Assembly: GCA_018266765.1 (NCBI GenBank)
Contig: JAFDZU010000041.1
Location: 1-46,916 of the forward strand
From: Bacteroidota bacterium
GTDB taxonomy: Bacteria; Bacteroidota; Ignavibacteria; Kapaibacteriales; UBA961
DNA: 46,916 nt
Direction of reading: 5' to 3'
Positions 14,988 through 31,072 of this stretch are shown here, piece after piece (position 1 is the stretch's first letter; every line of letters begins with the position of its first letter). The translations under genes and the position numbers were made by a program. The notes beneath the pieces were generated by a model. The model did no database searches. It saw nothing but the letters and a program-made list of their open reading frames with translations, and was not told the origin of the DNA.

Positions 14988-15656
14988 CTATCTCTTAGTA
15001 ACAACTGCTCGAATATAGGGTATTCCTTTCTTTAACGAAAAATTTTCATGATCAGTTAGTGGTAAACTCCATTCATCAACTAATGAATATTTAAAATTAA
15101 ATCCACCGTGAACATTAAGTACTTCTTGCTGATAACTATCAACTTCCGGTACGTCAGTCATAAGAAAAAGAGTTCCAGTTGAACTCATAGTTCTGTAGAG
15201 TTCATTAACTAAATCTATATTAAAAGCTCTTCGTTTGCGATGTTTTTTTTTGTGCCAAGGGTCTGGAAAGAAATAAAATGCAGATTCTAAAGATTCATTC
15301 TGAATAAAAGGAAGTCCGTTTGAAGAGTTATACCAAAGAACTCCTGCATTATCAATACCTTCTCCGGTTATAATATCATCAATCCATTCAACTGCTTGTT
15401 TACGTACCTCAAGACCAAAAATATTCGTTTCTGGAAATTGCGTTGCAAACTCTAATAAAAATCCTCCACGTCCACAACCAATATCTAAGACATTTGGTGG
15501 TTGATTATTTGAAAAATATAACGCCCAATCTATATTTTGTTGAAGTGGGGGATAATATCGTGGTAATACTTTGAAATCCTCATACCGTACATAGAGATTA
15601 GGTGCTGTGTGATGTCTCATTCGAGGTGTTGGGTATTTCTTATAGTCAATTTTCAT
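14988..15656 (-). CDS. trmB: tRNA (guanine-N7-)-methyltransferase TrmB
   Basis: TrmB makes m7G at position 46 in the variable loop of tRNAs using S-adenosylmethionine. The 222 residues carry the SAM-binding motif LDIGCGRGGFLLEFA (about residues 56-70), the acidic FGLEVR end of the second strand, and the family signature FPDPWHKKKHRKRR (about 130-143). The start ATG lies in the last copy of a 14-bp triple repeat and overlaps the stop of a five-codon ORF. No Shine-Dalgarno is visible. The next gene upstream (15694-15948) and tRNA-Pro lie on the same strand. Confidence 0.95.
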   Translation of the reverse strand: MKIDYKKYPTPRMRHHTAPNLYVRYEDFKVLPRYYPPLQQNIDWALYFSNNQPPNVLDIGCGRGGFLLEFATQFPETNIFGLEVRKQAVEWIDDIITGEGIDNAGVLWYNSSNGLPFIQNESLESAFYFFPDPWHKKKHRKRRAFNIDLVNELYRTMSSTGTLFLMTDVPEVDSYQQEVLNVHGGFNFKYSLVDEWSLPLTDHENFSLKKGIPYIRAVVTKR

Positions 15657-15670
15657 ATTATATATTTCAT
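15653..15670 (-). CDS. Five-codon leader ORF 2 (MKYII) overlapping the trmB start
   Basis: This is an identical second mini-ORF. Its TGA (15655-15653) overlaps the trmB ATG (15656-15654) as ATGA, the arrangement typical of translational reinitiation. Translation is inferred, not shown. Confidence 0.4.
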   Translation of the reverse strand: MKYII

Positions 15671-15684
15671 ATTATATATTTCAT
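15667..15684 (-). CDS. Five-codon leader ORF 1 (MKYII) before trmB
   Basis: This reads ATG AAA TAT ATA ATA TGA on the - strand, starting 9 nt after the stop of the upstream gene. Its TGA overlaps the ATG of the next mini-ORF as ATGA. Existence of the frame is certain; translation is inferred. Confidence 0.4.
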   Translation of the reverse strand: MKYII

Positions 15685-15693
15685 ATTATATAG

Positions 15694-15948
15694 TTAATGT
15701 CTATGCTTGTTTTGTTCTTGTTTTATATAAATGTTTAGGGCTGATTTGATATTCTGTGGTTGAGTCCGCATATTTAAAATCACTTCTAAATGCTGACGAA
15801 TTTCAATCAGACGGATTCGTTTATTTTCTTCTTTCACTAAAATCTCTTCAGGTGTTTCATTACGCGCAGGTGGAAGATTAATTAAGTGGGGATTATTTCT
15901 GCGAAATAATTCTCGGAGTTGAACAAGTTGTAAAATATCATTACTCAC
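15694..15948 (-). CDS. Small hypothetical protein upstream of trmB
   Basis: This 84-residue protein is not recognised. It has no signal peptide or membrane span. It is mostly helical in composition with many charged residues (KEENKRIRLIEIRQHLEVIL, about residues 39-58) and a polar His/Lys-rich tail. It is probably co-transcribed with trmB, whose start is only 37 bp downstream through the 14-bp repeats. tRNA-Pro lies 73 bp upstream on the same strand. Confidence 0.6.
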   Translation of the reverse strand: MSNDILQLVQLRELFRRNNPHLINLPPARNETPEEILVKEENKRIRLIEIRQHLEVILNMRTQPQNIKSALNIYIKQEQNKHRH

Positions 15949-16021
15949 AATTTATAATAAAATTATTCTAACCTAATCCATTTGGATTGAATACATAACT
16001 TGAAATCACAATTATTGTTTG

Positions 16022-16095
16022 TCGGAGTGAGAGGATTTGAACCTCCGACCCCCTCGTCCCGAACGAGGTGCTCTACCGGGCTGAGCCACACTCCG
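16022..16095 (-). tRNA. tRNA-Pro (CGG)
   Basis: On the - strand the acceptor stem is CGGAGTG/CACTCCG with discriminator A. The anticodon arm is CCTCG / TTCGGGA / CGAGG, so the anticodon is CGG (Pro, codon CCG). The T arm is GGAGG / TTCAAAT / CCTCT (last pair G-T). The variable loop GGGTC has G at position 46, the TrmB target. CCA is not encoded. Confidence 0.95.
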
Positions 16096-16557
16096 AAATT
16101 CAATTGCAAAAATAGGTCAATTACAGAAGTCAAACAAGAATATTAATAAAATTTGCACTTTAATCTATTCAAAAAAACAAATGTAAAATTCATCATTGTA
16201 TTTGAACTATGACAATCTGAATTGGCTATTATTAAACATTACATTGGCTGAAAATTTATTATTCATCAAATGAAAAACTCCCTTAAATTATAAATTATAT
16301 ACTTAATTATTAATACAACTAAGTGTTAAATTAAAAAAAATAAATTATGTAAGTATTTTTAATAATATATAATTAACGAATAATATATCGCGAAGATAAT
16401 TTAAGGTTTTTTTGCTTGCTTCAAATTTAATAGAAAGTATTACTTAGAATAATTGTATTATATTCTATGATAATTCAATTGGCATATAGCTTGTCATAAG
16501 AAACAGCAAAGAGAAATTTCTTTGTAGTTTTTTTTACATAATTTAGGGAGAATCGCC
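16096..16557 (+). promoter_or_regulatory. Intergenic region upstream of flagellin
   Basis: These 462 very AT-rich bases show no convincing gene. The features visible are the sigma-54-like promoter at 16480-16494 and the ribosome binding site AGGGAG at 16545-16550, 7 nt before the flagellin ATG. The upstream stretch leaves room for an enhancer-binding protein site, but I could not pick out a clear palindrome. Confidence 0.5.
16480..16494 (+). promoter_or_regulatory. Candidate sigma-54 (-24/-12) promoter for flagellin
   Basis: TGGCATATAGCTTGT fits the consensus TGGCAC-N5-TTGC with exact GG-to-G spacing (GG, 10 nt, then GT in place of GC). The predicted transcript would start near 16506, about 50 nt before the ATG. 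An rpoN gene lies in this window at 22386-24110. One core base departs from consensus, so the call is tentative. Confidence 0.5.
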
Positions 16558-30706: not shown

Positions 30707-31072
30707 TCACAAATGATTTTTAGTTCTATAGGGTGTATTGTTTTTTTTAAATGGTTTGGCAGGACTTATTTTCAAGTAATCATATACTACTTCGTTGGTA
30801 GATATTTCGATTAAATTCGGTTCAATTTCCTCATAATGCTTCTTAATTATCACCTTCATCTCCGAATGGTCATCGTACTCCTCCGAAAACACTATAATAT
30901 CCTCCGAAAACACTATAATATCCTCCGAAAACACTTTAATGTCCTCCGAAAATGCTTTAATGTCCTCCGAAAATGCTTTAATGTCCTCCGAAAATGCTTT
31001 AATGTCCTCCGAAAATGCTTTAATCTCATCAGCTGTTACTTCCTATAAATCCGCTGTATCTTTACGAATCAT
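30707..31072 (-). pseudogene. Small coiled-coil gene of 21-bp repeats with an in-frame amber codon
   Basis: On the - strand an ATG at 31072 opens MIRKDTADL, then TAG (31045-31043), then the same frame runs on for 112 codons to a stop at 30707. After the TAG it reads EVTADE, then seven heptads of the form IKAFSED or IIVFSED, then a unique tail including HYEEIEPNLIEISTNEVVYD. The heptads put Ile and Phe at the a and d positions, an ideal coiled coil. CAG to TAG is the simplest origin of the stop. The part from GTG at 30934 (75 residues) could still be translated, since GGAGG sits 8 nt before it. Function unknown. Confidence 0.5.
30859..31026. repeat. 21-bp minisatellite, seven units plus one degenerate
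   Basis: Units of CCTCCGAAAAtgCTTTAATgt type start at 30880, 30901, 30922, 30943, 30964, 30985 and 31006, with a diverged unit at 30859-30879. Units 1-2 are identical (CACTATAATAT end), unit 3 is intermediate, and units 4-6 are identical. Unit 7 differs only at its end. Length is a multiple of three, so copy changes keep frame. Confidence 0.97.

Follow-up and report, generated by a model that had tools for sequence, protein, structure and literature searches.

In the window, the whole 46,916-nucleotide stretch of DNA analysed here, the start codon of trmB lies in the last of three identical 14-nt units, each of which carries its own ATG. The question is whether these units form a translational relay into trmB, act as promoters, or are a duplication of the start site that has been tolerated. 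The features concerned are the following.

14988..15656, minus strand: trmB, tRNA (guanine-7-)-methyltransferase, 222 aa; assigned by Pfam PF02390, start backed by relatives.
15651..15692, minus strand: array of three identical 14-nt units, TATATAATATGAAA; sequence and Tandem Repeats Finder; single locus in the genome.
15653..15670, minus strand: mini-ORF 2, ATG AAA TAT ATA ATA TGA (MKYII); putative, from the sequence alone.
15667..15684, minus strand: mini-ORF 1, ATG AAA TAT ATA ATA TGA (MKYII); putative on the same basis.
15694..15948, minus strand: 84-aa gene with a GTG start; no Pfam family; a kept neighbour of trmB in the family.
16021..16095, minus strand: tRNA-Pro (CGG), upstream of trmB and in the same direction.
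16107..16137, minus strand: match to a Bacteroidota-type promoter, TTG-N20-TATTTTTG, the likely start of the unit; consensus match only.

Read on the minus strand, the end of the 84-aa gene is CAT TAA (stop codon 15696-15694), followed by a single C, the three copies of TATATAATATGAAA (15692-15651) and ATTGAC; past the array, trmB reads on as ATTGACTATAAG. Tandem Repeats Finder reported a tandem repeat of period 14 with 3.0 copies and 100% matches. The ATGs of the array lie at 15684, 15670 and 15656, the third being the start of trmB, and each is preceded by the same 8 nt. The TGA of each mini-ORF begins one base into the following ATG to give ATGA, and mini-ORF 2 shares ATGA with mini-ORF 1 on one side and with trmB on the other. 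The distance from the stop of the 84-aa gene to the start of trmB is +37 nt directly, or +9, -4 and -4 nt when taken stepwise. Coupling by termination and reinitiation is expected for gaps of -8 to about +10 nt, a range that the direct distance exceeds and the single steps keep to. A first-pass annotation of this DNA had given the three units with their coordinates and frames, the ATGA overlaps chaining two five-codon MKYII frames into trmB, the 9-nt spacing between the upstream stop (TAA 15694-15696) and the first mini-ORF (ATG 15684), and the absence of a Shine-Dalgarno sequence before trmB. All of this agreed with the sequence and, for the repeat, with Tandem Repeats Finder.

The product of trmB matched Pfam Methyltransf_4 (PF02390) with an E value of 2e-32. 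The start at 15656 was supported by a conserved N-terminus, which reads MKIDYKKYP in the window, MQIDYKKYP in a genome of the same genus (G001) and MKTIDFTKYP in the sister genus g3. A TAA that lies in frame within the second array unit also supports it. The Pfam search of the 84-aa protein returned no family. The 84-aa gene adjoins trmB in the genera g1, g3 and perhaps g4, with NPHLxNLPPAR as its core motif.

The locus was then compared across 14 genomes of the family, with one genome per species, and the array was present in the window's species alone. In G001, trmB is 75% and the 84-aa gene 65% identical to those of the window, and the gene order (tRNA-Pro, 84-aa gene, trmB) is the same. 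The stop-to-start spacer of this genome is 16 nt long and holds neither the repeat nor a mini-ORF. In G002, which belongs to the same genus and is 82% complete, neither trmB nor the 84-aa gene gave a match. In three genomes of g3 (G004, G007 and G009), trmB and an upstream gene of the 84-aa type share ATGA; G005 (g4) has a 95-codon frame at this place, and the sequence shared with trmB is GTGA. The four g2 genomes that were read have another, longer upstream gene, which shares an 8-nt overlap with trmB. Direct overlap of trmB with its upstream gene was thus found in most of the family, and it is gone in the window's species and G001. Since the array occurs in one genome and the direct overlap in four relatives of two sister genera, the coupling of trmB to the upstream gene looks ancestral and the repeat late. 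For an insertion at the ancestral stop-start junction, the overlap is seen in g3 and g4, but the same-genus G001 has the 16-nt spacer. This spacer suggests that the direct overlap was already gone in the window's genus, where the coupling may therefore be of no importance at all.

The array contains three TATAAT hexamers, and the first-pass annotation had proposed that they serve as a promoter array, in which case they would drive a separate trmB transcript. One sigma-70-like match (10 of 12) does lie inside the array. However, the promoter-like matches of the region were at chance level (13 vs 10.0, sd 3.1). Upstream of divergent genes, TATAAT was not enriched (54 vs 45 in shuffles), whereas TAnnTTTG, which we take to be the Bacteroidota promoter motif, was enriched about 3-fold (91 vs 32), and TTG-N17-21-TAnnTTTG was found 17 times vs 3 in shuffles. 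A match of this type, TTG-N20-TATTTTTG, sits 11 nt ahead of tRNA-Pro, a layout that is repeated in G001. A promoter function of the hexamers is very unlikely, and it was rejected because the motif is not enriched and the matches are at chance level. As the enriched TAnnTTTG fits the promoter site at 16137-16107, the repeated TATAAT is better read as an AU-rich initiation context.

Between tRNA-Pro and the 84-aa gene of G001 (L004), an apparent intrinsic terminator, AAGACGATGGATTCATCGTCTTTTTTG, was recognized by eye. No intrinsic terminator was found at the equivalent place after tRNA-Pro in the window, and the transcription layout may differ between the window and G001.

The missing Shine-Dalgarno sequence is ordinary in this genome, since a four-base match (AGGA, GGAG or GAGG at -4 to -16) precedes 24% of the ATG starts, compared with 2.7% in shuffles. 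The genomes of g1 and g3 showed none ahead of trmB either, and a search of the assembly for a 16S gene with the anti-Shine-Dalgarno 3' end found none. The array region is AU-rich and folds weakly, with a minimum free energy of -1.7 kcal/mol (z +0.8) over 60 nt and -4.0 kcal/mol (z -1.55) over 100 nt, and an RNA structure in the array was rejected on account of this weak folding. Because the same 8 nt precede each ATG, ribosomes could either initiate de novo at the third ATG or reach it by stepwise reinitiation. With E. coli reporters, coupling fell by 80-100% at a gap of 38 nt, while an upstream frame of 15 nt was enough for coupling (PMC10666635). By analogy with these systems, the stepwise route of +9, -4 and -4 nt appears physically reasonable, and some ribosomes should be lost at each reinitiation step. 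A termination-reinitiation relay into trmB is plausible, as judged from a geometry that allows it and from the direct overlap in four relatives.

The repeat might also have been selected as a functional relay, in which the ATGA-linked mini-ORFs would restore coupling between the 84-aa gene and trmB across the 37-nt gap. The direct ATGA or GTGA overlap in four relatives is in line with this explanation, as is the almost complete loss of coupling past about 20 nt (PMC10666635), and the route offers a first gap of 9 nt and links at the most frequent coupling distance, -4 nt. However, 28 of the 37 nt bridged come from the array itself, so one unit would couple equally well, and G001 copes with 16 nt and no mini-ORF. 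Moreover, half of such repeats would be expected to show this geometry. We regard selection of the repeat for this purpose as unlikely.

The expected geometry can be derived by arithmetic. The TGA begins one base past the A of ATG, and for this reason an ATGA-bearing repeat of period P yields an ATGA link if P = 3n+2 and no stop occurs earlier. In a simulation on 692 ATG starts from this genome, all start-spanning segments of 8-30 nt were triplicated. The link arose in 15.5% of the triplications over periods 8-30, always with P = 3n+2, and in 3,066 of the 6,228 triplications (49%) at P = 14. ATGA is read at 418 of 695 ATG starts in this genome, and the commonest second codon is AAA. These results indicated that, given the repeat, the ATGA linkage is not improbable. 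The first-pass annotation had further stated that any copy number keeps the relay intact. This is true automatically, since copy-number independence follows from a 3n+2 period and an ATGA start, and it is no evidence of design when 49% of the simulated 14-nt cases behave in the same way. A self-propagating relay, in which the 14-nt unit holds a start and the preceding stop within ATGA, slippage changes the copy number with coupling unbroken and the copy number sets trmB output, is very doubtful.

As a repeat, the array is real and far above chance; as a class, it is one event within the sampled 2.07 Mb. No second site with paired array units was found in the 3.7-Mb genome, and two tandem units occur only at the trmB locus, not at the many loci of a MIRU-type dispersed family. 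In a survey of 2.07 Mb (56% of the genome) with a simple open-reading-frame caller, the trmB array was the sole frame-changing tandem duplication spanning a start codon among 1,463 gene starts. A dispersed repeat family was rejected, as neither the genome-wide pair search nor the survey of 1,463 starts gave further copies. Elsewhere in the family, a triple ATGA at 14-nt spacing had 0-3 matches in most genomes, which by eye were apparently unrelated to one another, and the reversed-pattern control was near zero; all 13 matches of G005 belong to a single simple repeat of 7 nt located at the end of a contig.

Exact tandem units slip readily, and slippage could in principle change the number of units, and hence of reinitiation steps, and so grade trmB expression, if each step shed some ribosomes. 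But trmB is a housekeeping gene and the sampled genome is without another such array, and phase-variable tuning of this kind is very unlikely. The copy number could also be an artefact of assembly or sequencing, since the genome is a 106-contig draft; with 42 nt being far below the ordinary read size and the array lying in the interior of a 103-kb contig, this is hardly credible.

Non-coding arrays of 21-nt period, with differing units in about 7 to 14 copies, were observed at 30879-31024 of the window and at three other places in this genome (L197 4-298, L158 1-142 and L047 17428-17565), two of them at contig ends. The heptamer GTCTGCG/CGCAGAC forms non-coding tandem arrays of 2-10 copies (L197 7613-7682, L244 1782-1830, L153 19163-19183 and L047 2-43), which are reminiscent of the TAACTGA heptamer arrays (PMC4679880).

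We consider it probable that the array is a recent slippage-type triplication of the Shine-Dalgarno-free initiation site of trmB, which has been tolerated and is not a dedicated regulator. The ancestor would have carried a single 14-nt segment, TATATAAT-ATGAAA, in which trmB began 9 nt past the stop codon of the 84-aa gene, and two extra copies would have shifted this start downstream by 28 nt. Given a 3n+2 period and an ATGA start, the displaced starts would have become five-codon frames, each with its stop overlapping the next start. Translation of trmB would have been little harmed, with de novo initiation at the third ATG, in its AU-rich and weakly structured setting, and as an alternative or parallel route ribosomes from the 84-aa gene may reinitiate through both mini-ORFs. 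We infer the single-unit ancestor, the behaviour of the ribosomes and the neutrality alike, and the identity of the units could be explained by selection, not by recency alone.

The first-pass annotation had regarded an ATGA mini-ORF chain made by a tandem repeat as undescribed, which is wrong in kind. The precedent is given by mycobacterial interspersed repetitive units (MIRUs), which reportedly go back to Supply et al. 1997. MIRUs insert at start codons, where the frame that they bring is joined at -4 nt to that of the gene (PMC12548453), and they occur in tandem, as in senX3-regX3, where H37Rv has three identical 77-bp units and CDC1551 has two 77-bp units plus one of 53 bp (PMC4213456). 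Judging by the arithmetic, tandem MIRU copies can chain by ATGA, 77 and 53 being 3n+2, as is 14. Like MIRUs, the trmB repeat is a tandem unit at a start codon within an operon, and its short frame joins the following start at -4 nt. Unlike it, MIRUs are 40-100 bp long and apparently mobile, and M. tuberculosis H37Rv carries them at 41 loci (PMC12548453, PMC4213456, PMC2734929), whereas the trmB unit has 14 nt and a single locus and apparently arose from the start site of trmB; the two are not claimed to be related in sequence. If working at all, the trmB array would be comparable to a small MIRU array, and it is not a MIRU.

Other systems share single features with the locus. In ATGA/GTGA termination-reinitiation pairs (PMC6728339, PMC10666635), stop and start overlap at -4 nt, as they do for the same gene pair in the sister genera, but in the window the 84-aa gene and trmB are separated by two frames of five codons each, for which no product is evident. 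The iraD uORF (PMC5574718) and the axe-txe minigene (PMC8708949) are likewise very short frames just before a gene, with a possible cis effect on translation; they are experimentally backed, whereas the trmB mini-ORFs are two identical, repeat-derived frames known from sequence. The TAACTGA heptamers are also short tandem units directly before start codons in a setting where ribosome-binding sites are rare, but they are a genome-wide family, and chained starts are absent from its description in the abstract (PMC4679880).

The interest of the array itself is low, since its geometry is expected on arithmetical grounds, relatives do not conserve it and MIRUs are a better-developed precedent. If the relay does not run, the locus is an ordinary start-site duplication. 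If it runs, it would be the smallest case met in this comparison of coupled frames chained by a repeat, and an easy test bed for the number of successive reinitiation steps that can be taken without a Shine-Dalgarno sequence. The locus also suggests a general rule, that repeats of 3n+2 period over an ATGA start compensate for themselves in translation, and this rule may help account for the tolerance of 77- and 53-bp MIRU units in operons.
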